From positions 55,905,249 to 55,969,248 of the forward strand of contig NC_088295.1 in assembly GCF_032854445.1 (NCBI RefSeq): a stretch of DNA of 64,000 bases, in the 5' to 3' direction. This DNA comes from Liolophura sinensis (taxonomy: Eukaryota; Mollusca; Polyplacophora; Chitonida; Chitonidae). The translations under genes were made by a program, and so were the position numbers. Below are positions 2,182 to 37,000 of the stretch, piece after piece; the first letter of the stretch is position 1, and each line of letters opens with the position of its first letter. The notes beneath the pieces were generated by a model that saw only the letters and a list, made by a program, of their open reading frames with translations, had not been told where the DNA came from and searched no databases.

Positions 2182-2717
2182 TTAATAGTAACTACACAAT
2201 GATTAAAATTGAACTACAAATAAGCATAGGTTAAAACTGAAAGACTACAGAAAAGCACACAGAATATACTAGATGTAACTTATAACATATGCTTAAATAG
2301 CAGTTACTAACATTCTGTGCATGGAGATTCTAAATAGATGCATAAAACAAGGGTGATAACTCAGTTTACAACAAATCTTGACAGGAAAAGTTCTGGGCTC
2401 GGTTTCATGAAGCATGCTATAAAGCTAAAGTAAGCCCTTAATACCCTGACAACATACCTCGTAGAGAAATGAAGTGCACTTAGATAAGGGCAACTTAACA
2501 CTAAGTACTCCTCATGAAACCGACTCCAGGTAATACATATTGTACGCATTAATTTTAGGCCCAATTACATCTATTTCTTACATTTGATATACTGTCAAGC
2601 TGTAATATAATAATCTGGCTAGATAACTTTTAAACTGAAAAACAAAAGAGTACACCATTGCATAGAATATTGACTATATGATACTACAGTGGAAGACAGT
2701 GACACCCAAACAATTTT

Positions 2718-3031
2718 GATCTTCAGCATCATGGTTCCAGTTGGCTCAAGCTGGGGGTTACACTTCAGATAAATGAACAGACACTTAATAGCCTTGTTAA
2801 CAGAAGAGGTGTAAGAGACTGGAGCATCCTGTCCTTTGGGTAAGTTTAGATGACAGAATGATACATTTGTTAAGATCTTCAGCATCATGGTTCCAGTTGG
2901 CTCAAGCTGGGGGTTACACTTCAGATAAATGAACAGACACTTAATAGCCTTGTCAACAGACAAGAGGTGTAAGAGACTGGAGCATCATGTCCTTTGGGTA
3001 AGTTTAGATGACAGAATGATACATTTGTTAA
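2718..3031. repeat. Tandem duplication, ~156-bp unit, two copies
   Basis: The unit begins GATCTTCAGCATCATGGTTC at 2718 and again at 2874. The copies differ by a few substitutions and a short indel (CAGAAGAGG versus CAGACAAGAGG). Downstream of the CIN85/CD2AP gene. Confidence 0.9.
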
Positions 3032-3106
3032 GATGTCCAGCTTTTGCTCTCATTTTTCATTCATACAAAGAGCAGTTAGGTTTTGAGGCTTGGAGAAGGA
3101 AAACTG

Positions 3107-4099
3107 TTTATTAAAACAGATAGACTTTACCACAGAAGGATTAAAGTGTATATTACCGTAATGAATAGATATGAATACTGAAAGGTTGAGAGATTACCTA
3201 CTGCAAGCTTGTACTCCAACTACATCATCATATAAATGTACTACTACTATGGTTAACTACATCGATCTATTCTGCAAGATAACTGTGTGCACCTTTTGAT
3301 TTCATGAACAGTAATACTATTGACAGTCAAGTGGTGTTCATTCTTCAGGAACGTTTTCTTCTTGTAACAGTTACATATGTAGTGCAGAAGTTTTCTGAGA
3401 AAAAGGACACATGCATGTTTTTTTCACAACACAAACAGGACAAATACAGACAAATGCAGGAAGCCCTTACAAAGAAAACATCTTCAAAATCATTAAATGG
3501 TTAACATCATTAACAAAACACAGTTCATACAACATAAAATAAATATGCACAAAATCAATGAAAACATAACATAAAGTAAAAGGTGTATTATCCTGCAAAA
3601 CTATGGCCAATACTCTAATTAAAACAGTTTTCTTAACAAAATTATAACTTATGTTAAAAAAACAAATAATGTTGACAGTAGCAAATTAATTAGAAACAAG
3701 AACCATCATGTCTTGAGAAAGAAAGCACTGATATCAGTCTCTTGGGCTTCTTCAAACACAGGGCTGTTTTATTGTGTCCAAATAGATGTGTCTATCAGAT
3801 GTACAGACAAGGAGAGAGGAGAATTAAGGGGAATTCATCCTAATATGAAAGCTGTGGCCAGTCGTAAGGGCAAAGAAATCACACAGGTGATCCCAACACA
3901 ACATGGTCTTTCCGAGAAGACCCCTGATAGTTAGATATGCATACATTACATGATACACAGATGATATGAGCTTCATGTTAGCGGACATGAAATGCAATAC
4001 ACTTAGGCTTGGCAGACTGATGAACAAACAATTGGAGGTTTCCTTTTTCTTACCCAACGGACACATTCCGATAAAAGATTTTTTACTCAATGGACATGT
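3107..4099 (-). other. SH3KBP1/CD2AP: 3' untranslated region of CIN85/CD2AP
   Basis: No coding signal is seen after the stop at 4100. AATAAA occurs on the minus strand at 3768-3773 (UTR ~330 nt) and again at 3107-3112 (~990 nt). Which is used cannot be decided here. Confidence 0.5.
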
Positions 4100-7000
4100 T
4101 CAGATAGAAGAGTCTGCAACGAGGCGTTTGATCCGATCGATTTCAACCTGAGTGTTTAACCTAGTTTTCTTCTCTTCATCCACTTCATTCATCAAATCTA
4201 CGAACTTCTTCCCAAAGGCAGATTTCATCGCCTCCATGTCCTTGCGCAGTTTATCAAGTTCTGATTTCAGGTCATTATAGGCTGCCTTGCTGACGGTATT
4301 GGCTTTAAGATCACGGATTTCCTTTCGAAGCTCGTCCACTACAGCAGAGCTGGCACCCGAATGGCTGACACTGGCTGAGCTCGAACTGGCAATGGAATGG
4401 CTGGAGCCGGAATGTGTCCCGGAATGTGCAGCGCTTGATGACAGCTTGCCTGTAATAATAGAGACAACAGAATATTAAGCTGGAAATATTATCCTGCAGC
4501 ACAGTGGATACGCTACGTTCCTTCTCTCTTCTACCCGTTGTACTTAATAGCCATGCAGCTCCCATCACTGATGCAAAGGGGATTAAATCTGACTGGTTTA
4601 ATAGCCAGTCTACTTGATGAGTGACATAACAGAGACTAAACTCACTGCTCTGCAGCCTAGCAAAGTACCAATATGAGACATACATACATGGGGGAAAACA
4701 AGTGGTCCTCAATGAATGTATTCATGCATGAGTCAAGGACAGTGTGAGCGTCATCAACTGGTCACTATGGTCACTATGGTCACCATGGGCACTACACGTA
4801 GTAAGATTTATGTGTAATTTCTGGAATGAAGTGGCTCTACTCTCTGCTTGTCTAGTATTCAATAGTCAAATTTCACACTCACCTGGCAGCTTACTAGGAG
4901 AGTCTTCCTGCTTAACAGCATTTGCTAAGTAACTATTCCGTTTCGAAGATGTGGACATCATACTTGGTCCATGTGTTGAATTGATGGTGGGAAGGCGTTT
5001 CTTTGCATCATCTTTCACGTTCTGCAGGAAAAAATACAGTTATACAGAAATACAGAAAGTGCAGTGAACGACAAACATGTGAGCTAAGCAGTCTTGAATG
5101 TGCAAGATGCATCATAAGGGAGACACAGTTGATCTATGCCTATGATACAACATGGCTGATTTTGCTGACAGCCCATGATTCAGTTCAGTCCTAGGCTTTT
5201 GTGTGTATATCGACTTGAACTCGTATATAGTTTCAGGTCCCCACAACGACTCTAGTGTTTTTGCACAGTCACTTTCCACTGCAATGTACAGCAGAGTGTA
5301 TACATTATACAGCCGAATTCAGAGCCAGGATTGAGGCAGTCATCTTATTCTCCAGATCTCTGCACTATAGGTATGACATTATATTACAAACACAAACCAA
5401 AAAATCTGTCAAAAAGACTTTTGGTTAATAAAACTGAAGCAGGGAAAATTGGACACATGAAAAACGCTGGAATTACATCCCTGACATTTAACTACATGAT
5501 ACTATGTTTGGGTCTCTCAGGGCTGGCTTTTGTGTTTCTCACCAGGCTACTTCTCCTTACCCTCATGATTTACTTTCTTCACCTGTAGATCAAGTTGTAG
5601 ATTGCTGATACTGTGTTTTCAGAATAAGAACCATATACACATGCTGATAAGCAATGATTTCCTAAGGGAATATGACCACCACATAATCATCACAGACTAG
5701 GTTCTTTTGATACATAAATTCTAGAAAACCACTCTTTTGCACATGTTGTATATTAACTGAAATTAACATTTACGGCCAAGTGTTCCGCATCCTTTGTTGG
5801 GTATTACAGCAATTTCATAATCTTCTTTCACAACTTTTTTGAGGTTATAACACATGTAAGATGGCAGTCCAGTCTACATACGAAAATTAGCACAACTACT
5901 CGTTTTCCAGTACTTGTGTCTAAAATAAGGCGACACCCAACACCCATATACATGAAGATTAAAGACAAGTGCATCACACTAAGATCACAGACGGATTACC
6001 ACAGGGTATTTTTTCACTTACCAAAAGTCAGCAGGTAGAAATCTAATACAATAGATAATTCACTGCCAAGGAGGCTCGGATCTTTCACATAAGTATTTAT
6101 CATATCACAACTACAGACTACTGATCACTAACCTCGTCTTTCTTTTCTTCCTTCTCTTCTTTATGTATAATACTACTTTTGTGTTTATCGTGATCTTTTG
6201 ATTCAGTAGATTTCTCCTCCTCCTAAAAATAAGAAACGTAAATGGCAAATTCCATAATATGTTGTGTCATCATTATTTCATCAGTCAATATTAGTACAAC
6301 TGGAAAATTCCATGATTTCCATAAAATGTCTCATAACCTCTGGCTTCACTGACCCCTAAGTAACTCACATTTTAGGATTTTTGATGGAATTATTTCTACA
6401 GTTAAACCTTTCTTGGATTATTGCTAGCTCTGATTTCCAAGAAACATATATAGTTGGAGAACATCAACATCGTGAAGAACTTGGAAATTGCTGAGTGAAG
6501 ACAAGAGTAGTTTAAGGAAATATACAGAAATTAACTCACAGTATGAAGGAATACTTGAGATGGAGGCCGTCGATTAGGTAATTTAGCTCTGTTTGCAGTA
6601 GGGTGGGAAAGTTTCTCGGAGTTGGCTTCTAGTCCGTCAAAGTGATCTGTTGGAACAAATATTGTTAAGACACATGAAAGTGTACTTCATTACGCATGAC
6701 AAGAAGTCCATGCTATAGGTGCAATGGCCACTTACATAAGACACTGAAGAAAAATATCAATTATTATTGTGCAATACTATTGCATGCACCTGTAAATTTA
6801 GGGATGCATGACGAGTGTCCCAGATGTACATCTAATCGTAACGAAGACTGGCTTGTGAAAAACATACATACAACATGACATATCTTTAACTTGAAAATAG
6901 AGACCTTTTATAGCTTGAAGTTACAAGTTGTAACTTCTAACTTCTACCTTTAAACTAGATTCTAGTTTGAAGGTACAAGTAAAATGCTGAAATTGTAACT

Positions 7001-10000: not shown

Positions 10001-13000
10001 ATCATACTCGCTGCTTATACATATTTAGACATGTCTTAATGCACATTTAAACAATGTTGTTAAATTTGCTTTTTTAAATCCTTTTTTTAAAATCATTGTG
10101 TAATATATATCTATACCCAAGAATTTTTTCAGTAAAATATGGTGGTGGTCAGCATTTTGAGTACAGGAAATGAGAGTGCCCATGGTTAACTACCGTTATG
10201 GAAAGTTACTGATAAATTTTCCCCAGATGTGTACACCATATAGATATTGTTTGAAGTTGTCATCAAAAATTTTAAACTGCGTAAACGGCCACAAGAGCAT
10301 CCTTGACCACTTACATTTACTGTCACGAAGGCCTGACAAACAGTGAGAGCTCGAGACATCCAAAAATTATCTATCTTACACAGACTTTATTGTATTATTG
10401 GAAATAATGCATTTAAAACTGCATGTTTTATGCACATAAAAATTAGGACCAATGAAATAGGAAATACATTAAAGCAATAATACTTTCCCTGCTTTACGAT
10501 TTACAGTTTGAGGCTGAAAGGTGCTGAAATTCACTACTTGTATATATGTGAATAATTGGATAGCTGGATCCCGCTTGAGTTACAAATAGGAGTATCGCTT
10601 AAAATCAATAAAATGCTGGCATCCATGCACTACTAAAATATATCTCATTTCTGAACCGCCCACCCACTGGAACTGAGGAATGGAATTAATGATGATACAG
10701 AATGAGGAAAGTGTAAGGACTCGTCAGTTTTTGGCAATTGTATTACAAGGGTGCTATAGTAGGCAAGAACAGTGTAAACCACCTATCAGATAAATAAATA
10801 AACAGTAGGCAGGAGAAGTGAACATTCATAGAATTCACCTTATATCTCTTCCAATACATTTACAGGGTTCCCAAATCCTTCATGAAAAACATTTCTACAT
10901 TTGATGACTAAGTAACCCTATAACAGCATAGAAAAGGGCACCACTAGATGTGTATGACCCCCCTCTGTAAATTACACAGATGAAGTGCCTCCAACAGGGT
11001 CAAACAGCTGTTTCTATATACCTTTCAGATATTACACACCGAGCAATTTGACTTCAGAACAGAATTTTTAAGCATGGAATTAATCAAAGTATTAATATGA
11101 CAAGCCACTTCACCTCATCAGGCACTTGATAAAACTGCTGAAATAATGTTATAGCCGAATTAGCAAAAGCTGGATTTGAAGTGACTTAACATACTTGGAG
11201 GGAATTCTTATCCATTACTTATAAACAATAATATATCGTATCCTGTATATCTAAAAATTCAACCACATAATGTACATGTGCAAAATCTGTAATACCTGGT
11301 GAAAGTGAAAGTGAAAAAAAAAAAAAATATATGCAGCTATGTTCTTCGAAGTTCATAAGATTACTCCAAACACAACAGCAAATTTATGACTGAGCATGAT
11401 ATCCCTCCCACCTCCCCACTACCCCCTCTTGCATTCATTCACAAGGGGGCATAAACAAGTTTTGCGGACTTTCAGCCTTGTAAAGTGTACAGTGTTAATA
11501 TTTATTTATTCATTTGATTGGTGTTTTACACTGTACCCAAAAATATTTCACTTATACGACGGCGGCCAGCATTATGGTGGGAGGACACCGGGAAGAGCCC
11601 GGCGGAAACCCACGACCATCCGCAGGTTGCTGCCACATCTTCCCACATAAGGATGCTGGGCTTGAACTCACAGCAACCGCACCATTGAGTGGCTCCTGGG
11701 TCATTACGCTGCGTTAGCGCCTTAACCAACTGAGCCACGGAGGGCCCTACAGTGTGAATATAGTTCACCTCCATGTGTACGTGTTAACCTCTGTGTTATT
11801 TTACTTTTCTTGTCTATTATCAAGTTTACAGTGAATACACCTAAGAACAATATGGCCGAAAAGGAAAAGAGAAGCTTACTTGACTCTTTCTTGTCGTGGA
11901 ACACAAGCTTAGATTTGTGGTCTTCTGTATGTGGTTGTGACTTAGGGGCTGATTCAAACGGTCGAGCTGGAAGTGGCTTTTTACTCACTGGGGGCGGCTT
12001 CTTTGATGGAATAGCTGGAGGGGAACCAGACGGAGCATCTGTAAAATGAAATATTAAATAATTACACAGTGTTCATAATCTCTCTAGGAACAATCAATGT
12101 GTGTGCATGCAAGTTCAAACTGGCCAGGCTAATCGATGTACTGATAATCTCAGTTCGCTGTCATGAGTGTGGTGGTATCCTAGCAGATTCATGCTCAATT
12201 TTATACACTGTGAGTATGTTAACCACCACTGCCTCAGAGGTGGTAGATGTAACTCTTTCTCATCTGATTATCGTGAAACAAAAATGCATTTTGAGAGAAA
12301 GGACACTGAACTGCATTAACAAGGCAAATTTTTGGCTATTTCTGCACATTTAAAAAAAACTTCCGTTATCAGAAATTAACAGCAAAAAAAAATGACAAGC
12401 CCTTTGCCCTTTGTTGCTTTATGATAACTTGTATAACTTAACATGTACACCAAATCTTACCGTCTTTCTTTTTGGAGTTGTCTGTGTGTGTAGGCTCTGG
12501 TCTCTCTGGCTTGTTCTGTACTTTAGTACTTCCATAACTACTGCTTAATGAAGGAGGTGGTGGCTTCTTGGGCTTAGGCTGGAAAAAAAAGAACACCATA
12601 TACATATCTATATATATGAAAAACTGTATTCACTAGTGAGACGAGTCTGTAGAATTACAGATTTTAGGAAACCTACTGACACTCAACTTTACCATCACTT
12701 TAGCTCCAACCATGTTAGGCACACACACCAAAATATTCCATATTCACTAGTGAAACGAGTCTGTACCACAGTAGAAGACCCACTTGTTCTTGATGAACAG
12801 CTTTGTGAACTTACGTCAAGCCCCTAACTTTTTAAAATGTTAACTCGAGCTCATGAGCTCGCTTCTCTGACAATGTGTCATGCACAAGTCACTAAATGAA
12901 CAAACCTAGATGTGTTGCTTGTGACCATATTGTGGAGGACCCCAGCAATAGATTTAACACAAACTCTGTACTTGAAGTTGAATTTAACATGTGAATCGAA

Positions 13001-16000
13001 ATTTGTAATGTACTGTCTTATTTGTAAATAAATGGAAATCATTGTCCCAATTCACATTTAACATATGAAACTGTATATTAGACTTATCTTGACCCATTTG
13101 TCAGGCTTAGTGGCTGTCTTCGTATTGTATTATCCTAGACTTATATTCAAGTCAGTACTCGCCGCTTGATTTCGTGTTGTTAAAGGACCACTGTTGTCAA
13201 GTATACAGTGACCATATACTGTCTATAATCACAGGTTATCAAATTCTCAACAACGCTACCATCTCACGAAGCACCTTCCATTTAAGCTTCGAATGAATCT
13301 ACAGGATTCTCAACGGAATAAATTGTTCACCTTTGATATTTTTTTTATTTATTAGTTATTGTGACTTAAAATTGCGGCCCCCTAGTCTCAAACAGTGGAA
13401 CCTCTCGTCAAGGTGACTTGAGCATGGTTTTATTTCTTAAATATATCACATGAAAGCAAATCAAAACAATATTTTAGAACTGGGCTTGAGAATTACAGGG
13501 GTGAAAAATACATGTACTTGTACTCACAGTCTCTTGGGGTTGAATTTCCACAAAGTTATCTGGAAACACACCCACTTTCCCATTGACCTCGCCTTTCCAC
13601 CAACCACTGTCCTCTAACTCCTTATCCAATAGAGTGATCACATCTCCAACTTCTAAATTCAGTTCGTCGTCATTCTCAGCAGCATAGGAGAACCGTACAA
13701 TGGCTTTCTCTACTACAATAAAAGAAAAAAAGGCAAGTGTTATAAAGATGTGTATATGTGACAGAACAATGTCAGTGACAAAACCTTTAAAATTCAAGGC
13801 AAAGAAAACTCCGACGTTAGTTAGACAATGTCCACAAAAACAGTTGGATTTATTTTTTTTATAATTCTTTCAACCAAGTAAAATGCATTTGAAACTTCTT
13901 CTTTCTTAGCACATCGGGACCAGTGACAACAAATCAGGTTTAAAACCGCTACTTAACACACATGAACTGTTCGATATAAATGCATTTACATATAGATGCA
14001 TGAATGCACTCTCTGCATGGACCTTGACACAAATTATTTCACGCAAAAACATGGATTTGATGTCACTGATACCTGCTGGGTCACAACAGATCACCATAGA
14101 ATCTGATGTTTAAAACCATTTTACTCGTTCAGAAAAAATTCTAAAAAACATAAATCAAACTATTTTCTTTGGCAGTGTTCAATGGTCTTTAATCTGATAC
14201 ATACTTCATTTATGTTTTCTTTACCTTTCACTGAGGACTTATAACAGATTGACAATCTCAAGAAGGAAATTCAAGCATGACTTAATTTGATACAATTTAA
14301 TCCATGTAATTCATACTGGTGCTACTTGAATATCTGCATTTTCACCTTATAGCCACACATTAAACATGCATAAAATTTAACACAAAACAAATTAGGTGAA
14401 AGAAGGAAGTTAGAAACACACACCCCAGGCACCATTTTCACAACTGAAACATCATAAGCCTTTCAAATTTCATAGCTGGATTTCTTACACAACTTTTGGA
14501 ATTTTGAAACTGCAGAATTCTTGTTTTGAAACAAGAATTTAATCCCTTCATACAGCTTCAAAATAATGATTTTAAAGCAGTTTGTGAAATTGTGCCCAGT
14601 ATGATAACTTTCAATAAGAGCAAAGTATGAAAACAAAATCAATTTGAAGAAAACGTATCAATAATCTGATTCAAAACCATGAAGATGAAAAACAAATCTA
14701 AATTAACAGCAGCTTCATACATAAACAACAAACAAGAGCGTCAGAATAAAGCATGAGTTAATACTCCATGGCATACAAATACTGGAATGAATAAATTGTA
14801 ATAAAATTTAATTAAGGACAAACAACAAAAACTATCGAACATTTTCACAATTCTCATCACCTTGAGCTCAAATCCGCTTGCCCGATGTCTTGTTATGTTG
14901 AGAATTTATCCCAAATATTGACATATACTTCATAACTCTCTAGCATCTTGATCTTGCAGCTTACCCTAATTCCTCAACCCTTTCGCATATGAAAGAGCAA
15001 CTTTCAGTGCAATTTATGCACATTTTTAAATAGAATTTGGATATGAAATTAAATTAGTTGGATTGGCCAGTTTCAGAGCTTCACAAAAAGTAAAAATTTA
15101 TGAGTCAACACAGAAGAGTGTCTTCAGAATATGCTGGAATAAACACCTTGCAAACATGCGAAAAAGTTGAAGAATTACACAATATGTTGAACAGTTCCCA
15201 CAAGCAATGATGTACCAATAGTGACATGCTTGGCGTAAAAATCTTGTTAAACACCTCTGATTAAACCATTTCACAATCATTGTCTATGTGCTACTTAACT
15301 TGTCCTGTACAAATATTTCACATAACTGGCTGTGTAGCAATTTTTGGCTGCATCTGATCTGATCAGTGCTATAAATTATCATACAAATGGTGGAATTTGA
15401 CAGAATCATTTCATGAAAAACTGGCAGCATTTTCTGTGAAATGTGTCAGCCCTTTAGCAAACTTATCAGTAACCAGACAGAACACTGCGCACTGCACCTT
15501 GATGCATTCAGTCTCCATCGTCGGATATACATGCATGCCAGAAAAATCCACACAAAGGCTTCTGAATTAACATCTTAACACGAGAAAATATTTTATTTAA
15601 ATTCTGCTATTGGAGGGTTAACAGCATCTAACAAAGCAAACTAACTTATTTACATTTCACGAACTTGGAGAATAAACTTTCACAACACTTTAAGAATAAC
15701 AACATAATGGTGAAAATTTCCTAAAAATGATTAATGTATATGTGCGGGTATGTCCAGTTTAACAATGGTCAAGTCTGAAAGGAATGAATCAATAAACATA
15801 TTTTACATCAGCGGGTCACAACTTTTGAAAACAAGATATTCTCGGAGACCATCACGTGTAATTCACATATAAAGCAATTAGAAGTCATGTTGATAGCTGA
15901 CAGTGCATTGTATGTAAAGCAACACTGTGCTGGAATTTTATTACTTAAGACAAAGAAAGTACCGTAAGAATTATCTTTTCTTAAGTGTGATACACGTATG

Positions 16001-19000
16001 TTTATTTATTCATTTGTGTTTCCTCATCTGTGAAATTTTATCAGAAATACAGCTCATACAGCATAATGCTACAAGTAACAGAAATTGCCTTCGGCCTTGA
16101 TCACCACTCTCTCCGACGACTCAAGTTTCATTTTCACAGAGCATAATGTTGAAATGGTAAAAACATGAACCATTATAGTTTCTACTAACATCAGTTTTCT
16201 TTGATCTGTTCAATTCCTATTTCTTTTAACACAATTTTTCAAGATTGTCAACACAATGTAAAATTAAAACAGCATCACCATAATTTTTTCGCTTGCTCTT
16301 TTAAAAAAATGTAAAGATCATATTAAAATGAATGTGAATTAATAATGCAAACCATGAAAACCTTAGAAAGAAAAAAAAATCAATCTCAATGCTTTTCACA
16401 ACTAAGCTCAGTATAAAACAACACCATGGATAACAATTACAGCTCTAGTTATAAAAACATTTACCTTTAAACATTTGAGTACTTGCTTTAAAAAAAGTTT
16501 CACTAAAACCTTACTGCTGCACGTGTGTCCATTTATAAAATGTCAGTTCTTTATTTTCTCTCACTGAAGGGAGCTGTGTATAAGGTAATTACCATGATTA
16601 CAGAACACACAACATTGGAAATCTCAATGCTCTCAATGCAAGCTGGACAGAAAATTCTGAAGGAAAGGCACTTAGAATTGTAAAGTACCGTATCTACATG
16701 TTTATGATGTATGTCATGCAGCTGACATAGGCAGCACATCATTATGGCTGATATATGAAGGACTTTGAAGGATGATTTTTCTCAGAAGTACTTCCAATGG
16801 TTGATATGTTTGTGATCTTAAGTCATGTTTCTGTACTGCTGGAGGAAGGACTGGGTTGTATGTCTGTCAGGCTGTAGTAGAGAGCAGCTTTGCGCGACTT
16901 GTCTGCTACTAGATTCTCTATAGTACGGTCATTTGCGTCTTCGCTATCAGGTGAGATCACTGAACGGGCCGACTGGGGAACAGATGAAAAGAGGGAGCTC
17001 CCAGCAGTTCCTGATTCGGACAGACAGGTATCTGTACTGAGATCATCCAGGACATGGAGATAGGAGTCAAAGCAAGCTACAGGGGGCAGGTCCACTTCTG
17101 CAGGTAACATACTCAATCTGCTTTCGCTTTTGTCTGCTCCTTCCACCGAGGTAAAACCTCTAAGTTCGTCATGCTGTATGTCATCGTCATCCATACCAAA
17201 AGCCACACGGCACACTGCATTAAAGGAGATATCGGATTCTTCCCCATAGTGTGACAAGAAATCTGTGTATCCGTCCTTGGTGGTGTCCCGGAACAAACAT
17301 TTGCTATCAACATAATACGCTAGTTGATTTGCTAGCTCGGACCTAACAGCACTGTCCAGGATATTATCCACAAACTGGCCCACCTCAGTATCCATGTTGG
17401 ACTCCACGATGTGGCTGTCCAGGACACCTTGGCTGTGGTGCAAGTGATCAGGTGTAAGTGTATCATCCGCTCCATAGGCTTTGGACAAGAATGACACTGG
17501 TGTTAGGTCATCTGCGACACTTTCCAACTCCGCAAACTCCTCAACATCGGATAAGTTATTGGACACAGAGGACGTTGAGTTAAGAGAGGTTGTAGTGCTG
17601 TCAGTCAGCTCTTCCTGATGGCTGTCCCTGTCACCTGTCATATCCAAGTGATCCCTTTCCATCCTCTTCACTTCCTCGATTGGCATTCCAACATCTCCCA
17701 GCTCCAATCCAGGATGGTTATGGTTGATATTGTCAGCCAGGCATAATGAGTCACCGCCAGTCAGAGACCTATTCAGTAGTGGTACCATGTCATACATTGG
17801 TGTGCCTGGTTCATAGACTTTCTTGTATGAGATCAGTTCAACCGGCTTTACAATCTTTGGCTGATGGACTCTCTTCCACAGACGATGGTTCTTTCTTTTC
17901 TCACTGCTGCCCTTTACAAGTTTGGGGTCTCCATCTAGAACAGACTGCCTAGAGCAAAGCGAATCTCTCACTGAGTGGATGGAAGTCAAGGTGCTTGAAC
18001 TGTCTATAATCAAGTACCGGTTGCTTTGTTCTGCCTCAGGTACCCTGTTCAGAGATTTGGAAACAAGGTTAGAGGAACTGAGATCCAATTTAGAAATTTC
18101 TGGGTACATCCATGAAAGGGGTCTTTTCACTGAGTTAGTTTTCGCAGGAGATTGCCTCCTAAATCTACCAGGCAGACTTTCAAATGAAGACTCTAAGATT
18201 CTTGACGAAGGTCTTCGCCATGCTCCGCGGAAGCCTTTGGGTATAGTATAGTTGCTGCTACTTGAAACATCTAACTGTAAGCTACTTTGGAGATCTATTG
18301 AATTCGTGACATCTTCTTCATCTTCCATGCAAAATATGTCATCTGGGACCTGTATTGCTACAGTTACACTGTCTGACAGACTTGGTTTTTGGATGCTTTC
18401 AGAGAAGGATGCTTGAAAGTTTTCAGGTAAGTCACCTTCAATTAATTCTCTCTGGAGACTTGTGAACACTCGACTTCTGGTCAAACTTGCACGTGTCTCA
18501 CCATCAAAGAAATCCTTGGGGTCTATCTTCTTTGAGGCAGCCAAGTCTGTTTGTCCTTGGACAGTGCTAAGATGTACATGTGACTCTGAATCATCCCTGT
18601 GATGAGCAACTGATTGACTGAAACTGAAATTTGACCCTTTTCCCTTCTGGTTCCACATGTAGTGTTTCTTCACATCTTCTGCACATATTTCAAGAACTTC
18701 TGGCGACACTTCCACTATGCAATTTCCACTTTCCAAGTCTTTGTCTACTTCATCAAAACTGTCACGTGATACTGTTTGTGCTTGATTCTTAAAAGTTAAC
18801 CACTTGTAGTTAGGCTTCACCACTGGAGAGGTTGGCTGTTGTTGACCAATGGACTCCAACGAAGATTCTGCTGAAGCTTCAGGTGCAGTTATATCAGCGT
18901 CATCGCAACTCATACTGATAAAAGAAGGATACTTTTCTGGGGTAAGTGGGCGCTCCTCTTCAGCGAGAAAGGAGGACATCAATGATATGGAGTAATTGTG

Positions 19001-22000
19001 CTCACAACATGGTGAAGACTCTTCTGTATCTGGTGAAAAGCACTCCTGATACATTCTATCACCGCTGCAATCTGACTTGACTGGTGGTGTCAGTGGAATT
19101 TCTTCAAAGTTTGCTGAAGAAATTTTCCCAACACCTGTAAAGTAGCTGTCCAGAATTGGAGTGAACCTGTTGCTTACAGATCTAGTTTCTTTGCTTTCCA
19201 TTGGCAATGAGTGACGATGAGTACGGTACTTCTCAAAAGGGTCTACGTGTGGTTCCTCAACATCCTTCGTTGCAAAGAATTTCCTCCTTGCTTCAGAAAA
19301 AAGTGAGTTTCTACCGGGGACAGTTTTCGGCAAATCACATGCGGGAAGATTCTGTGCAACTGAAGTTGGTCCTTCTTTAAAATCAGGAGATGCCAAAGGT
19401 GCTCGCATTCCATCAAATTTGTCTTCTGGTGACTGAATAATGCTAAACAGCACAGCAGCTACAGCATTCTCGGCAGTATCCTCTACCTCTTTGGTTGATA
19501 ATTGTACGTCTTCAGCAGAAGCACCTTTCTCACAAGTTGTTCCAATGCTTTGGCTCATAGGTCTGCTTTGAGAGTAATACATAATGTATGGATCATTATC
19601 ATCACTGTTATCACGCTGTTCAAGGAAAGGGTTCTTGCTGTCATCAAAATAGTATTCCTTGATGGGAAGATGATCAAAACTGGAGTGAAGAACTTTCCTC
19701 TTGCCATCTAAGACATCCAGAAGGTTGTATCTCTTCGCAATGAGCTGAATGTAGGGTGGAAGTTTACCATGGTTGTTCAATGAAGCCAGGTACGTTTGCG
19801 GAGAAGTCTTCAGGGGAAATGAGAGGGGATCCCCAAGAAATTCATCTGTCTGGTAAACTGTGTTGCAAGTTTGTACCACGCAGCTATTGTTGGAGCTTGA
19901 ATCTTGTTCAATAAGATTGTCACAGGTACTCTGTTCAGGTCCCTTGCTCTTTTTGACATTTTCACATGATGCATCGGACGTCTTGGTAAGGGACATTGGT
20001 AAAGTCCATCTCCTTTTCTTGCCAAGTGGGAGGAGACTCTGAGTTTTCTTGACTTGCTCTGAGGGTTTACCATCGGATTCATCCAACCCATCGCTTTGTG
20101 TGGGAGATGTAAACATGTTTTTGACAAACGATCTAAACTTTGATAAAGAGGTGGAGGACTTCTTCAGCAGACTGTCTCCTTTGCCACTGGGAGGGGATGG
20201 CTCTGGATCAGTAGTCCAAAACTTCTTGGCGATGTGGTCCAGATGTGAATTTACACTTCTCACTGCTCCACTATCTCTCGGTGATGACAGTCTCCGCTTG
20301 TGAAGAATCATACTATCCGTCAAGCAAGCTGTGCTAAGGGAGCCATCACTGGGGACAAATTGGTCAATAGACTCTTGAGATTCGTCAAAAGGTGGGGACA
20401 CAAAACCTACATCTTGATCAAGCTCCTGTTGCTCGGGTGAAGCAAAGGACACAGTTTGTTCAATGATGCAGTCAGAGTTGCACCTAGGCCTAGCTACTTT
20501 TACATTAATATGTGGCTCAATTGAACTGATATCAAAGCTTACAGCAAATTGTTTATTTGACATAGAACCATGACCACTCGTTTTTGACAACGGTGTTTTC
20601 ACTATCTGAATCCTATGAGGAATGTCTTTCCCACTAGGTATGTTTGGAGTACTACATCTCACAGGTTTTAACCCTGTTTTAGTTTTTCTATCTGTATCTG
20701 CTAAACCTTTTGATCCATGAGATATATGTATATATGTGCTATCTGTGGCTTGACTGACCAGTACTTCTCTACTTCTTCCCTTCCTTCCTTTTCTTCCTTT
20801 GCCCTTGTGTCGTCCTACCAGGGGAAAAAATTTTAACCAGACACTCAAAAGGCATGCACCTCACACAAAACATGCAGGGGAAAATCTTATAGAAACAGAG
20901 AGTGAGAAGACATTAAACACAAATTCGTAGTGTTGAGGAAATTGTAGGGTGGGGGGTGGGTTGGTGGGGGGTGGGGGCAGGGGTGGGTGTGGTTAATGCA
21001 CGAAATGGAGGGGAGCAGTCCATAAAGTACTAACACTGGGATTCTTGACTACCTCACCAACTCACCACCATCTAGCCCTATACACATTTTGTATTACATT
21101 TGTTGACACCCCCTCCTTTCTCTACATATTTTATTCAATCACCAGGCCCACAAAATGACTAGGATCATCATTACAGAGGAATGCAGTAGACTGGGTCATT
21201 CAATAACAAAGGCTGACTGACATGGGTGAAGTAAAAATTACAAGTGAATTACACTCCGAAAATTATATGCTGCAATTTCACTGGCCTTTTTTTTTGTACA
21301 TATACATATATACACCTAATGATTAACATCCTCACACCTCTCCTCTCATATATCAGCCTTGTACATCATGAAGAGCCCTGCACCATGGGATTAAGTACTT
21401 TATAAACTGTACCTTACAAAGGGAATGAAACATGTTGTATTTTCATTGGGAATAAGAGTGAGTGAGTGAGTGCTTGGGGTTTAACGTCGTACTCAACAAT
21501 TTTTCAGTCATATGACGACGAAATTGGGAATAAGAAACAAGGCATACAATGTGCTGTAGTTTTTTGTGACAGATTGATTTCCTGTTGTCCAGTGCCTAAT
21601 TTGGAAGTTGTTATAAAAAAGCCAAAACAAACACTGAAGTCTAACTTGCTACATGTCTAAAGTCAAGTATTTATCTACAAACTTGCTGTAATAGCCAAAA
21701 ACACCTCTGTCAATTCCAACAATACTACAACACATTTCATTTCCTCAATATACGAGTACATTAGTGAGGGAAAAAGAAACGATAGATCTGATATATGTGC
21801 AGATTAAGGATTCCAATCACCTAAAATATCAGACTTGTACAATTTAATAAAACAAGACATACTAAATTGAATCACAATGTCAACAGCAACTTACCTGTTT
21901 TCTCTCTCATAGTTGGGCTTTCTGTCTTATCCTCTTTCTGGAGAACAAATCAAACAAAATGAGAGCAGGGCAAAATTGACTCACACGTCCTCTCACTAAC

Positions 22001-25000
22001 ACCTACTTTATTTCTTGTGACCGACTGGACCCGTTCTCTACTGATACAATAATCGGCCAAAGAGCAATGTCTAGACAGCTCATATCAAGAAAGTAGGAAG
22101 TTAATAACTTCTCTTATGCAGGTAACATAACTAATTTTTTAAATGTGTCAAATTAATCATGTATATACAGTTATCCAACTAGGGTGAATATGACTGCACT
22201 TCTGATAACCATTAATAGGCACAGAAATCATCATCTACTTCATACAAGTGTGTTCACAGTCATCTTTACATGTGTGTACCCATGTGAGAGGATTAAATAC
22301 ACAATTTATGAAGTTTCGACATCACAGTGATGTCCCTTTACACTGAAGCTTCATCGATTTTATAATGTTAAATTGCATTAATCTGACCCAAAGGCCGCAA
22401 AAGTGACAATGTCATAACTCTAAAGCCCAGTATGATAAGGTATATACTAAATAGAAGAAAAAATAAATAAATTGAATATGTTACAATTAAGACTGCATTA
22501 AAATTTCCTGTGCATTACATAAAGATGATTTAATACAGGCTCAAACAAATACTTCAACAGTTGGAAAGATATGGTAGCAAACATTGTGTAATTGAGTTTC
22601 TCATGTTTTGAATAAATCAAATAAGATGAGCCAGTATAGCCAAACCTTAATAATCAGCCTGAAAACTGAAAAATAGGGGCAAAAAAAAAAACAAAAAAAA
22701 CTAGAATGGATCTGCGAATAGCAGATCCTAGGCCGGGATCCCGGATCTGATCGATGACGTTTTCCCCTCCATGTTCTGTGTTCGAAGGACACATGTTCCA
22801 CATACACGGCTTTCAAAGTTTCCATGCGACCTCACACCGTTTGTCACTGAGGCAGTCGGCCGGTCATTTGCTATCCCTCGAATAGATCGGCGATCTTATT
22901 AATGCTACGCTATGCCCAGTGAGAAACGGTCGTTTCTTGGCAGACTTAGCCCGCTATTTGGAAGAAATAAGGCAAAAACACGACCAGTGTAACAGCAAGT
23001 TTGTACATTCACATCTCAATCCACGACCTGCCATGCACAGACTCACAGCTCCACTGATAGCTCGGCCATGGTTAGAAAGTCAGCACTTGGACCAGGGCAC
23101 ATGTCCATATGTGTCAATAACCCTGGCCTGTTTAACATATAGTAAAGAGGACGAGGTTTGCGCAAAACAAAGCTAACTTTTACAGGTCCACGTCGTTTGC
23201 TGTTGTAGTTAGATCTCTACGCCATCTAATAGAGTACTGGAGTTAGATGGGAACTGGATTCAATGTCATCCTACAACCGTTTCGGGAGATCACGGACAGT
23301 GTAGCCGAAAGCATCAGGTCAAATACTACAAACCCAGTTAAGTCCCCATCTAACCCCATGTTAAAGCAATGGGATTCCCATTTTTTTTTATTCAAAAAAC
23401 TGTGTTGTGATTTAAACGATTGTAGGGAAAAAACTATTGATCGGAGCTCAAATCTGTTGACGAATGCTCGAAAGAGCATGTCTTGGGCTACAATTTCGTG
23501 CAGGTTGCACATTTCTAGCTGTCATAGTTCTCGAGTTACAGGTCATTGAATTTATGTCACTTTTTTTACTTTTTTGCTGATATCTCAAAAAGTTACACAG
23601 ATATGCCAAAAACACAAGCAGATTCAGAATCAGCAGCTCAAGATACACCAGAATACGTTCAGAACAATTGAACTTTGAGAACTTTTTGTGACGTCACAAA
23701 TTCGACCAATGGCGAGCTTCCAGAATTTTGACCGGAAGTAAACCATTTTCGCAAACTTTAAAGAACTCGTGACTTACTAGCTGCATGTCAAGTTTGAAAC
23801 CGATCGGTTTAGTGGTTCTTGAGAAGAAGATTTTTAAAGATTTTACACAAAATCCAATATGGCGGCCGAACCACGTGACATAGCAAAAAAGTGGAGAATT
23901 TGTCCCGAGATATTCACCGCCAAATTATGTGTGCAAAATTTCAGACCTGTATGTTGAACGGTAAAAAAGTTTCCATGCGAACAAAGTCGGTGAAAAAAAA
24001 ATAATAATAATAATAATAAGAAAAAACAGAACGATTACAATAGGGATCCCGTTCGGGAGAACGGGATCCCTAAAAAACTGCCTTCATATGGCTCTCAGAT
24101 GACTGTTACTTGATAATAGCTTTACGTAAACACTGTTTTCGACTACCAGCTAACAAAATGTCTTTTCCTTCCAGTACTAAGTTTTCACAGTCTTCATGAC
24201 AAAATATATTTTTCGCAGTAGTAAATGAATAATAATAACATAAATACCTTTCGCTCAGCTGTTTCTGGAGGCCCCACTTTTTTCACCGATGCACCTTTGT
24301 TTTTCAACTTTATTGGTCCTCCACCGAAAATGTTCCCAAAACCAAACCCTTGAACTTTCTTTCCTTTGATTTCTTGGAAATCCCCGTCTTTTTTAGGCTC
24401 ATCTATTAAAAACAAAACAGAAAGGTGTTGACAAATATTCGAGTTCAAACCATGATAGTATTAATCTAACATGGTACAAGTGTCAACTGACAGCAATTAT
24501 ATGCATACATTTAAATCCAAAATTGAATGTAAATATTACTTTATATATAATAATTGGCTATATTGAGAAGAAAAAAACAAAGAAATGCGTATAACACTGA
24601 AGTATGAAACACCTACATGTAAGAGTAAGTTACTAAACATCATAACATACATGTGGACCTAGTCTGCAAATCAGAATTCACCAGATTAACTTTATACCTT
24701 AAATAGGATCCTATATCATGTGATACACACAGATCCATGGTTTTATACATGTGTAGAAGTAGCGTATTGAAATGTTTACAACTGAAATCATACCTGTTTT
24801 TTCTGCTTCCTCGCCGTTCTCATCTAGTAACTCCACAAAGTTAGAGGGGAACATTCCCACTTTACCATTCAGGTTTCCTTCCCACCAGCCTTCCTCCTCC
24901 TTTAATTAAGAAGCATAGTTGTAATTTGATCCATCACACAACAGGCTCAGAGTACACCAGCACACACACACACAAAAATCATGTCATCCTACCCAGGCAG

Positions 25001-28000: not shown

Positions 28001-31000
28001 ATGAACAAATTATTCGGGTTAGGCCTACATGGAAGTCACCTTACACCATTATCTGGGGAATGGTTGCCTGCTGAGAGCTCTCATTATACAACAAATAAGT
28101 GTACAACTGTACTTCAGCTAAAAACAAATTTCACTGAGAAATATCTGTCATCAGCATGTTCATGTAATTCCAATTTGGTACCTCTCTCTACACACATATT
28201 TTGGTTCCGTAACAGTAGGAACTGTCCTCCTACTGCACAAGAGTTCCATTTCCTGTGTTTTTATATCAGACACAGAAAACTACCACGATTTACTTTTACC
28301 CCTTTTTCGGTAGCACTCTGTGCGAGCCCAGCAAATAGGGAGACAGGACCTGTTTGAGCTGTTATCACATTAGGGGTTCGCACAGTACTGTCATTGGCTT
28401 TATGAACAAAATGTTATGATTTCCTGTATGCAGTTTTGCCCTGACATGATTTACACGTCGCCTTCGACAGATAACATTATTGTTTTGCTTTTTGCCAGAA
28501 AAAATGATGTGATCGATGGGTAGACACATGGAAATTTCGAGTCCTGTGATTCTAAGTGGCTTGTATCTACAAGTAGATAAAACCAATCTGTATGACTAAA
28601 ATTTCATGTGAGGGGACTTGATTAAGTATTAAGTAAATTAAGTATTTATGTTTGCGAAAAATGAGCAGAATTTGACAGTCTTTCAAATTACACCAAAATG
28701 AACAAGAAATGTTTAGCTGCAGCAGTGCAAACGCATGTATATAGGTGTCGCTTTGATCACAATTAGACATCTTCATCTCGTCTGCTGGTAGGCCTAGTTT
28801 GCATGCAGTGATTCACAGTGGGCTAAATTCTGCTATAGTTTTGTATACGGAGAGCCCTGCAGTTTAAAAGCGGATATTTGACATGTCACTACACAAGGGT
28901 AATGGTATTCCCAGTTTTCTCCCAAATTTCCATTTATCACAAAATAACGAAAACAAAGCAATCAATCAACAAACACTAAAATCAGTATGATCAAAACTGA
29001 GGAAAACATGAACTGCTGGTGGTAGGAGCATAGACTAACTGCTCAGTGAAGCGTGAGCTTGTTTATAACATTTTTGAACTGTCCATATAATCCCTTGACC
29101 GCCCCTGATGCTCTCCAGCGGCGCTCAGTCAGTAAGAACCACAATCAACTAAATGAATCATTGGATACACTTTCCTTGTCCCAGGGTGAAACTTTAGGTC
29201 ATTTAATGTACATGTACATTAATACAAAGTTTCAGATATTACATTTCTCTCTGAAGGAAATCCTGATATCTCATTTTCATATAAACAGTAAATGTCATTC
29301 TTACAGGTTTTTCTGGCATGCCTAAATGAAAGCTTTGTTGTATATGTACCTGTTTTAATATCTCTAGAACATCTCCGACTTCTAAAGCCAGTTCGTCATC
29401 ATTTTCAGGCGTGTATGCAAAGCTTGCCTTCGCTTTTAACTTCTTCTTGTTGAGAGATTCTGCAATTAGACAGCAACAGTTTGGTATGATTTCATTTATT
29501 TCAACTTTGATAGAAGATTTACTCTGAGCTGAACACTGACAATTGGCATACCAAGAACAATCAGGTTTATGGGTGGGGAGAAAACATGCTTAACAAAACC
29601 ACTCACCATTACCCAGAACCCTGGCAAATCCATCAAATAATACAGTATATTTGAAGATGTCTATCAGATACTAAACTGCTCAAGATGTGTTGGAATACAG
29701 CTAAGTGTAGGGGAGGTGGGTCTTCAGATGGTCCTAGGCTCCCAGTACATACATGCATGTTCTTTCCTTTCCCTAATTACTCAACCTTTTCGGATATAAA
29801 ACAGCAACTTTCTGTGCAGTTTGTGTACATTTTTAATTTGATCTTGGTGACAAAACAACACTGGTTGGCTGGGCCAAGTCCGGGGCTTCACTAAAATACA
29901 CTAGAATATTGCCCTCAGAATATGCTTAAATAAACACCTTGCAAACATGCCAAAAAGGTTGCAGAATTACAATACATCATTTCCAAAAATGTCCAGCCCC
30001 CGACAATGAATATTCATAAACTAGATTTTAAGAGAGATAAAATATGCCTCAAAAATGTATAAACCCTTAAAACCATAATCTTCGATTTAGAGTACATGTA
30101 TCCTTCAAGCTGAAAACTGTTCATACCTCGTTTTTTGGGTGGTCCTCCCCCAATGTGTACCCCATCTCTGAGTTTATTGGCTAGCTCTGCAACATGACCC
30201 TTTGTTGAGGACCTTTGTGCTGTGATGTCTGCACCATCCTTCTCCTTATCATGTTTGTCTCTGTCTTTGGACTTTTCTGGATTCTTTATTACCTGAAACG
30301 ATCATGCAAAGAAAGTCAGTCCAAAACAAATATTTTGTATTTAATAATCTCTTTACTTTTTTGTGATTTAATTTTCATTCAAAAAAAAGAGAAAAATTGC
30401 TGACCCAGATAGTCGAAAAACCCTTCTTTTTACTGAGAGAATGACCCACAAGCCTCTCACCAACGCGGTCACTGTAGGGTCAAGTCCAGCTCAGGCTGGC
30501 TTCCTCTCTGGCCTTACATGGGAAGGTCTGACAGCAACCTGTGGGTGGTTGTGGGTTTTCCCCGGGCTCTGCCTGGTTTCCTCCCACCACAATGCTGGCC
30601 ACTGTCTTATAAGTGAAATATTCTTGAGTGTGGCATAAAAACACCAATCAAATAAATAAATAAATAAATAGACTGCATATCTTTTGCAAATACACTTCAT
30701 CTTTGAATTGACTAACACTGACAAATGTGTTCAATTACAACCCAAGAAACAGATCAGTGCCACATAATAACTGAGTCATTAAAAAAAAAAGAAATATAAC
30801 ATATATCGCAAAGTACATATCTACCTTTTGACGAAACTGTACTCTACGATACACGATGAAAACAAAATAAATGTGCACAACATGTTTAGAGTGAGTGAGT
30901 GCGTGCGCAGGGTTTAATGTTGTACATAACAATTTTTCATCATATGACAACAAGGAGTCCTTAAGGTGTGTGATGCATTGTACCTTTGTTCATGAAGAGG

Positions 31001-34000: not shown

Positions 34001-37000
34001 ATAGCGAAGGGATGTGTGCCAGACAAAAATGCACTGCTTCTTGCAAAGAGAAGGACTGCAAATGCTGTTGCGTAGTTGCTCCTCCAAACAGGTGAATAGC
34101 TGTTCAGCAGAAGACCCCCGCTTGCGTTCATGTACAAGTATTTTGAAATTCCAGCGAAGGAAGTTAATAATTGGGATCCCTAAATACACACAGTTCTGTC
34201 TGTGGGCACATCCTGCATTGCCCCCAACCCCCCCTCCAACCCAGGCTACAGCAACAGGGCTTGTGTACATTAAACAGACAGGAGATTTCCTGAGAAGACA
34301 AGCCAGCCCTGTTGTCTGGCACAGCCTTACAACCTTCAACTTAAGCTCCACCTTGCTTAGCCAACAAAACATAAGTAAACACATATCCCTCAAATTCCCT
34401 ATAACTTCCGAAAATTCAACTGCTCTATCAGTTTTTCAAAGAGATTCCCATTTAAATGGTCCTGAATGAAAAGAATACTGAAGAATCGAAGAAGACTACA
34501 CCAGGTACGTGGAGCAAACTTTATAACATATAAACTGTACATGTTTAGCTTTGAAACAAGATATATGTTCAAATTCAGCACGATGAAGGTGCAGTGTACA
34601 CATGTATTACATAAATCCAAATACACACTGTATCTTGTGCAACGAAATCAGCCCAATGCTGGTGATACAAGCCCATGAAGAGAAAAATATTTTCTCAAAC
34701 ACAACCAGTGGTCATAAAAAAATCTCCTACAACAAAGCTTTAGATCTACATGCACATAAACATACAGGCAACATTGCTAAAGGAGAAGGACAATGTATAC
34801 ATATACATACATATCTGTACATATCCATTAAAAACAAAATGACCATTATACTGACAGATTGTTGCTTAAATAGAATAATTAATGAGTTTTTGTGACACTT
34901 GGCATCTACATGTACATGTTATGATGTTTGTGTGAAGCTGCTGATTAGGCATTACACTCTTCTAACAACTGTTACTGTCTAGTAATGACAGACTGCGAAC
35001 ATGTGCATGAAGTGAACTGGCTGTATACAGGTACACTATAATAAAGTGAGCAAGATTATGCAACTAGTAAGAAATTCAACAGGTCTAGTCTGTAAGCTTA
35101 TGTTTTCTTTAAGACCTCGAAAACGAAATTAATGTTCAGTTTGTACACCGTTGTAGCTTGACAAATTATACTGGCATGAATGAATATGTGTAACAACACA
35201 GATTTTTGAAATGAAATCTGATTGTTTCAACTACTGATGGTCAACCGCCAGTATATCTACATGTATCAGAGTGCCTCTAAATTACTCCACAGTAGATTAG
35301 GCAGGAGGTCTCATTTCCTAATTTCCCTATGTCTCCCATGTTAATTTTGTCAGATTAGGTCCTCTCAACAACAGTGCGACACTCTCCACTGTCCCTGGCT
35401 CAACCCATGTTTTACCCATTTAACCAGGTTGACTTACCTCTACGAAGTTATCTGGAAACAATCCCTTCTTGCCGTTCAGTTCTCCTTCCCACCAACCTCC
35501 CTCGGGGGTGGAGACATTTTTTATGATATCACCAACTCGAATTGTCAGTTCGTCATGTTGTTCAGCATCATAATCAAAATTTACTTTCACTTCAACTGAA
35601 AATATAAAACAAGAATGACATGACAGAGCAAGTTATTATAATCAGATAATCAATTGGTTTTCTTTCTAATTTTTGGTGCAATAAACTATGTAACAGCACA
35701 GTGTAACAGTGTATGTATAACAGTTCACCACTCTCCGCCTCATTATAAAACTCAGCAGAGGACATATTCATATACGGTTATACCTGTGCGCATAAAAAAA
35801 ATATTTTAATAGCAAACAGCAGATCACTCGCCTCAATTTGACTGCAGGCAAGAAGAACTTGTCAGTGTGTCAGAGTAATGCACGATTCTCTGCCCTATTT
35901 TAAATTTTATACTTTCTCTTCTTTCAAGCGTACTTAGGGGGCATAAAGTACTTTTGAAGGATAATACTTTTCTGATGTTTTTTTTGTTTGTTTGTTTGTT
36001 TGGGCATAAAGGGGTTTGATTCATTTATTTCATTGGTGTTTTATGCCGTACTCAAGAATATTTCACTTATATGATGGCGGCCAGCATTATGACGGGAGGA
36101 AACTGGGCAAAGCCCTGAGAAAACCCACCACCATCCACAGGTTGCTCGCAGACCTAAATGGGTTTGATTGTCACATGATAAACATCTGGCTGCCTCCACA
36201 TACATGGATGCTTAAATAGCGTACAGCTTCACAGGACCATTGAACTTCAGCTCCATAATTTTTTGTAATCAAATCTACCATGGGTGCAGATTCTTAAAGC
36301 ACATTGATAGCATTGTGACAGAGTTATTTCCCTTGTCAATGTATGGATTGATCTGATGATAAAACTTTGCCTGAGGTCATGTTATCTTAACGCATTATCA
36401 TCCTTCAGAAATATTAAACAAAAATATTAATGCACCCGGAAGTTGAACATTCAAGGAAGCTCACTTATGTTAGAAATAGCTATATGTGCTATTCAGGTTC
36501 ATTTATACACATTCCCTTTCAGTTATTGCTCCACACTATGTTATAAAAACCTAGTTTTCTCTAGCCTCTTCCCCGGAAGTACAACGCATGAAAGACATAT
36601 ATACCATACATGCAAGACAGATATAGAGAATCGCATAGTGATTATATATACATGTACATACTCCACATGGACCTGACTGTGACTGAACATAATTTTTAGT
36701 CATTATTCCAAAATGGGGATTCATATATATTTCTGCACATCCATATCTGTCCAGTAATACAATGTTAAAATAAAAATAGCAAATTATGTCTTTGGTTTTA
36801 CAGGTACTCTGCCTTAACAACAGCATCAATATCTATGCAGGAGGTTCAATAGAACATGGTTACCACAGAGATTTATGCCACCTGAAATGTTCGTCCGGTG
36901 ACGTAAAAAGAACAAACCAGTCATATGAAACGTGATGTTGTTTTCGCTGACAAAAGTGAACGGATAGATATCACACACCAGGTGTAACAGAACAACGTCT

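Follow-up and report, generated by a model that had tools for sequence, protein, structure and literature searches.

A giant open reading frame in a chiton CIN85/CD2AP gene as a probable alternative last exon

A CIN85/CD2AP gene and the frame within its intron

We examined a 64,000-nucleotide stretch of the genome of the chiton Liolophura sinensis (contig NC_088295.1), here called the window, in whose coordinates positions are given. Its minus strand carries a gene for an adaptor of the CIN85/CD2AP family and, on the same strand and inside the intron between the exons for the second and third SH3 domains (exon 7 and the SH3-3 exon), a giant open reading frame. A preliminary description of this DNA had proposed that the frame acts as an alternative terminal exon. 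We observed that the frame is open from 20860 to 16826 (1,345 codons) and closes with a TGA stop at 16825-16823. The exon that it would form (16823..20814) holds 1,330 codons, the first of them shared with exon 7, and the stop, in agreement with the extent first described; in-frame starts at 20859 and 20425 are alternatives.

In a frame-specific codon model from which each block was left out in turn, the giant frame scored best in 14 of 14 blocks, and it did so again in all 14 when only canonical exons were used for training. The signal stood at 0.25 and 0.28 in the last two blocks and was gone past the stop. A frame of this kind lies far beyond chance: at least 145 open codons upstream were found at 69 of 103,454 noncoding positions. 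Because of the frame preference in every block, we conclude that the giant frame is real coding sequence, of a family that the searches made did not assign. The encoded tail matched no Pfam family and no PDB sequence at E values up to 10, and no match among viral and prokaryote contigs was confirmed or expected. Within its own genome, assembled into 632 contigs totalling 609,464,459 bases, the frame is single copy, with DNA and protein matching only themselves (protein at E up to 1).

The host gene can be followed along the minus strand as a canonical path in which all exons read through without a stop, giving 629 residues with the putative exon 1. The coding part of that first exon (44006..44009, ATGG|gtaagg) would add MV before EVKVNFDY. 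The position 44009 is the sole match to ATGGGT[AG]NG upstream of exon 2 (which begins at 35595), and with this exon included the alignment to CIN85 SH3A begins at residue 1. SH3-1 is encoded by exon 2 (35438..35595), followed by the linker exon 3 (30127..30292, phase 1 end), the first and second parts of SH3-2 in exons 4 (29350..29459) and 5 (24794..24899, phase 1 end), the linker exon 6 (24248..24402, phase 0 end) and the 43-nucleotide exon 7 (21895..21937, phase 1 end), which would be the last exon common to both ends. Exons 3 and 5 could also be joined in frame to the giant exon. The canonical path continues with exon 8 (13528..13712), which encodes SH3-3 and whose acceptor at 13712 takes phase 1, two proline-rich exons (12461..12578 and 11880..12038), an exon with a capping-protein-interaction-like motif at 6611 (6540..6646), a charged exon (6133..6222), a further exon (4883..5021) and the last coding exon (4101..4449), which encodes a probable coiled coil and ends in VADSSI and a stop.

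Pfam placed SH3 domains in three stretches of the canonical protein. The best solved relative of domain 1 (residues 1-57) was CIN85 SH3A (2bz8) and that of domain 2 (residues 113-177) was CIN85 SH3B (2o2o); for domain 3, three GRB2 chains slightly outscored CIN85 SH3C (2k9g). The capping-like motif agrees with the capping-protein-interaction motif except for RAK in place of RPK. A loose pattern for this motif also matched another place in the window, and [RK]P[KRQ]..[RK]RPP, a more stringent form, had no matches. On reading the peptide by eye, we judged the last exon to encode a charged, heptad-like helix. The SH3 matches, the PIKL linker, the capping-like motif and the heptad-like last exon together identify the gene, by sequence, as a CIN85/CD2AP orthologue with full architecture. 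The identification of a three-SH3 adaptor, the position and phase of exon 7 and the agreement in phase discussed below all held as first described.

The interval 35595-4101 (minus strand) thus contains the full CIN85/CD2AP architecture in a mollusc. One survey records CD2AP-type scaffolds in vertebrates and, outside them, only the CINDR of arthropods as a relative of CD2AP (PMC8294545).

Proposed joining of the giant frame to the adaptor

On the best reading of the evidence, this gene probably uses the giant frame as an alternative last exon. The acceptors at 20814 and 13712 both take phase 1, which matches the end of exon 7. Joined in this way, and given the putative exon 1, the product would comprise 247 + 1,330 = 1,577 residues. 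For the 1577-residue two-SH3 protein that had been proposed, length and phase are thus computed values, and the exon 7-to-20814 join is a prediction. The frame stops at 16823, before the exons for SH3-3, the proline-rich part, the capping motif and the coiled coil, so the loss of these parts from a long form follows as previously stated.

The main argument for assigning the frame to the adaptor comes from the sequence ahead of its first in-frame ATG. This ATG lies at 20563, and the frame before it is open for 84 codons counted from the acceptor, or 99 counted from the stop further upstream, which agrees with an earlier count of about 83 codons without an ATG. Among noncoding positions, at least 83 open codons upstream were found at 1,290 of 108,680 (about 1%) and at least 98 at 656 of 107,330. 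In the first block (codons 0-94, 84 of which precede the ATG) the giant frame was the best of three. The position asymmetry of the stretch was matched by 2 of 3,007 overlapping noncoding windows, and the frame score over 20755-20426 (110 codons) by 0.18% of 3,315 noncoding windows. At 15 codons upstream of the acceptor at 20814, the giant frame closes, which fits a coding start near the acceptor. On balance, the coding region is likely to reach back past the first ATG. Its start codon must then lie in an earlier exon, for which those of CIN85 are the evident candidates.

The acceptor is followed by a purine-rich tract (20764..20806; 41 of 43 purines) that resembles an exonic splicing enhancer and may act as one. 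The best 40-mer after the acceptor holds 38 purines and is equalled by no noncoding 40-mer on the same strand of the window. Regulated exons commonly combine a weak acceptor with a purine-rich enhancer, and the site at 20814 with its tract would fit this pattern. Past the stop, an AATAAA at 16550..16555 is a possible poly(A) signal for the giant end. The spacing of 268 nucleotides agrees with the roughly 270 first described; since AATAAA occurs at 0.86 per kb on the minus strand, this spacing is near chance and the signal is weak evidence.

Several observations weigh against the proposed join. Agreement in phase has a chance of 1 in 3, and it does not single out exon 7, because the exons that finish at 30127 and 24794 share its phase. 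The site at 20814 makes a weak acceptor: it scored -1.25 against 3.31-13.6 for 14 others (each left out in turn), 1.2 against 3.0-13.0 for 13 known acceptors when smoothing was applied, and 3.5 against -1.5 to 12.4 with pooled pyrimidine weights, where it exceeded one of the 13. Depending on the model, 326 or 160 of the 1,805 AGs in 44000-14000 score at least as high. The preliminary description called the 3′ splice site pyrimidine-rich, which it is not to any marked degree: it has 11 pyrimidines in 17 positions, compared with 9-15 at 13 known sites, and scores poorly; a GG at -5/-4 accounts for part of the low score. Other acceptors keep the frame, namely 20859, with the same phase as 20814, and 20425, with phase 0, which fits exon 6. 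For the stretch before the ATG, codon tests gave a mixed picture: its three frames are near equal when set against intron composition (0.038, 0.037 and 0.037), and the purine tract scores higher in a different frame. A frame test on composition alone came out neutral (-0.26 bits). The frame score over 20755-20564 is reached by 6.7% of 3,519 noncoding windows, and 8.7% of 1,207 stop-free noncoding windows equal the score of the stretch. When the tail is included in the models, the stretch scores lower than every tail window examined.

With codon usage learned from the canonical exons, the stretch before the ATG had looked coding-like, at a level reached by 0.04% of noncoding windows. We set this result aside because the three frames are alike against intron composition and the purine tract scores well in each; as it is not frame-specific, we placed weight on the frame-specific tests and on openness instead. 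Separately, the strongest acceptor in intron 7 by pooled weights lies at 21685 (minus strand; 8.3), outside all exons described here.

The main rival to the alternative last exon is that the intron houses an independent gene driven by its own promoter. This nested gene would have a small first exon upstream or would start at an internal ATG (20563, 20311 or 20116), and would be unrelated to CIN85 in expression and function. We regard such a gene as rather unlikely, chiefly to be considered in the version with its own first exon. It would be consistent with the weak acceptor at 20814, with the A at -3 of the ATGs at 20311 and 20116, with the absence of homology connecting the tail with the adaptor and with the codon signal, which is clearly higher beyond about 20490 than before. 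A start at 20563 or later would, however, leave the 99 open upstream codons to chance, at the frequency given above for at least 98, and the giant frame is the best in the first block too; neither objection touches a nested gene with a separate upstream first exon. The climb of the codon signal near 20490 also suits a variant of the alternative last exon in which exon 6 is joined to 20425 or exon 7 to 20859, giving a tail of 1,200 or 1,345 residues. Position weights prefer these acceptors (5.5 for 20425 and 3.8 for 20859, compared with 1.2 for 20814), and the frame is kept with the named donors. Pooled pyrimidine weights favor 20814 instead (3.5, compared with 1.3 for 20859 and 1.2 for 20425), and a start at 20425 would require at least 130 open codons upstream by chance, as found at 154 of 104,596 noncoding positions; we judge these other joins improbable.

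Two further explanations concern the fate of the frame as a whole. The giant exon could be an internal cassette, like the giant exon of ankyrin, with a donor inside it spliced on to SH3-3. The phase-1 donors at 18436, 17755 and 17635 score 6.3-6.7, inside the range of 12 known donors (4.0-12.0). Such a cassette is very unlikely given that the coding signal remains strong up to the stop, as seen in the last two blocks, and that among the best 14 donors listed the phase-1 donor nearest the stop, 17635, would leave out about 270 coding codons. That the frame is unexpressed, a decaying or accidental open frame, would accord with the lack of relatives in Pfam, PDB and its own genome, but is scarcely credible in view of 1,345 stop-free codons and a frame-specific codon usage seen in every one of the 14 blocks, which point to selection until recently. 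The likelihoods given here to the alternative last exon and to its rivals overlap, since one of the rivals is itself a version of that reading.

The predicted tail and the neighboring sequence

The tail is rich in serine (193 of 1,330 residues) and carries a net charge of -54 overall, with a basic start of +14 in the first 83 residues. A long disordered tail, as first described, gains partial support from FoldIndex, by which 64% of 51-residue windows are negative. For the last 260 residues, an AlphaFold prediction made without an alignment had a predicted local distance difference test score (pLDDT) of 34.2 and showed nothing readable. We scanned the tail with 22 patterns, using 300 shuffles for each and leaving P values uncorrected. 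PxxxPR sites and capping-like motifs were both absent from the tail, and the lack of PxxxPR rules out that the protein's own SH3 domains bind the tail through this motif. One NPF and one DPF were within chance (shuffle P 0.09 and 0.26). Serine/threonine-proline sites (23, compared with 16.9 in shuffles; P 0.04) and sites resembling the LC3-interacting region (27, compared with 17.0; P 0.03) were in excess, and both signals are lost under correction for 22 patterns.

The amphipathic helices by which A-kinase anchoring proteins bind the R subunits of protein kinase A (PKA) have a characteristic spacing. Tail residues 1145-1161 show the spacing of such helices, in a match made post hoc. AlphaFold placed a helix there in blocks of pLDDT under 40. 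A strict PKA-anchoring pattern matched once, compared with a mean of 0.01 in 300 shuffles; this rate overstates the case, because the pattern was written after the site had been seen. A looser pattern matched three times, compared with 1.05 in shuffles (P 0.10). We would guess, from these features, that this amphipathic element, the most conspicuous one in the tail, might dock PKA.

Upstream of the adaptor, a neighboring gene occupies 59392-48689 on the same strand. As a candidate alternative first exon of the adaptor gene we considered 57058-56619, a coding-like exon whose phase 1 end is compatible with exon 2; it was assigned to the neighbor because same-strand coding-like segments surround it (59392, 58208, 54347, 53982, 53360, 52904 and 48909). 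The peptide of 57078-56572 had no Pfam match. Peptides of the neighbor such as LCYLCHQRAR and QQDLVAQRKREAILKRLAE may correspond to CCDC81. By eye, a SINE-like (short interspersed nuclear element) sequence with a tRNA-like start and a short repeat tail lies in an intron at about 11740-11500 (minus strand), and an imperfect tandem duplication of about 155 nucleotides lies downstream of the canonical stop at about 3030-2720 (minus strand); Tandem Repeats Finder listed nothing in 2500-3200. Elsewhere in the assembly, at G000:C8:37880506-37891931 (plus strand), eight haemocyanin beta-sandwich matches stand in one 11-kb run, like an eight-unit mollusc haemocyanin gene.

Two predicted ends and their relation to known scaffolds

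Two open reading paths, their phases and coding in the giant frame are read in the sequence itself; from these we infer the splice, the choice between ends and all functional steps. Use of the weak acceptor near 20814, together with cleavage of the RNA downstream, would join exons 1-7 (SH3-1, SH3-2 and linker) to the 1,330-residue tail. Were this acceptor skipped, exon 7 would be spliced to SH3-3, 8.2 kb downstream, and the normal end would follow. The two 3′ ends had been described as mutually exclusive, and they would exclude each other, with the same strand and intron and a phase-compatible acceptor; the join on which this depends is predicted from a weak site with other in-frame acceptors nearby. 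Besides the PIKL linker, the long form would retain two SH3 domains, predicted to serve PxxxPR-type ligands; missing from it would be SH3-3, the proline-rich part, the capping motif and the coiled coil. Because the coil and the motif would be lost, it would neither trimerise through the one nor recruit capping protein through the other. It would also be free of the SH3C loop, and its tail may dock other partners instead.

In vertebrate CIN85 and CD2AP, isoforms are generally known to vary on the N-terminal side and to have the C-terminus in common. The canonical chiton path shares with CIN85 (SH3KBP1, Ruk), CD2AP (CMS) and cindr of Drosophila the order of SH3 domains, the PIKL linker, the proline-rich part, the capping-like motif and a probable C-terminal coiled coil; in contrast, the giant end drops everything from SH3-3 onward. 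The giant exon resembles skipped (alternative) terminal exons, in that it is likewise equipped, within an upstream intron, with an acceptor, a stop and an AATAAA of its own. It differs from them in its very long coding part of 1,330 codons, which to our knowledge is unusual for this class. No giant-tail isoform of CIN85 or CD2AP was described among the matches listed in the open-access literature, as judged from titles and the beginnings of abstracts, with annotation databases outside the scope of that search.

Proteins of this family are reported to link membrane receptors to actin capping and to bind CAPZ through the capping-protein interaction motif (PMC9986712), and human CD2AP has been associated with Alzheimer's disease and with kidney injury (PMC12135550). 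In human CIN85 the coiled coil mediates trimerisation, and a linker motif around PIKLRPR engages SH3C and holds it off (PMC10786037). Where that self-binding motif has PIKLRPR, the chiton linker has PIKLKNK (compared with the same source), and the SH3C loop may be weaker in the chiton anyway.

The giant exon of ankyrin is internal, whereas that of the chiton would be terminal and would displace existing domains. The giant forms of ankyrin-G are found in nervous tissue. Ankyrin-G (ANK3, 270/480 kDa) likewise has, in some isoforms, a very large serine-rich part encoded by one exon, which helps to restrict the scaffold to its site, so giant-exon parts on scaffolds are already known (PMC12202978). 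For the chiton Liolophura japonica, public RNA-seq data from five tissues (digestive gland, foot, gill, gonad and heart) are reported (PMC11068029).

As a broader proposal, which we put forward tentatively and would not yet expect to hold, one CIN85/CD2AP gene may encode two opposite proteins. One would be a trimerising adaptor that binds capping protein, the other a two-SH3 form of 1,577 residues whose tail brings an entirely different set of partners, PKA perhaps included, to the SH3 ligands that both proteins share; other molluscs may make the two proteins as well. If this is true, a natural isoform with two SH3 domains and without the third SH3, the capping link and the coiled coil would provide a ready-made separation of functions, and the gene would be a case of a large tail added to an old adaptor through the choice of 3′ end. 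The full scaffold architecture would then exist in a mollusc, beyond the vertebrates and arthropods named in the survey (PMC8294545).

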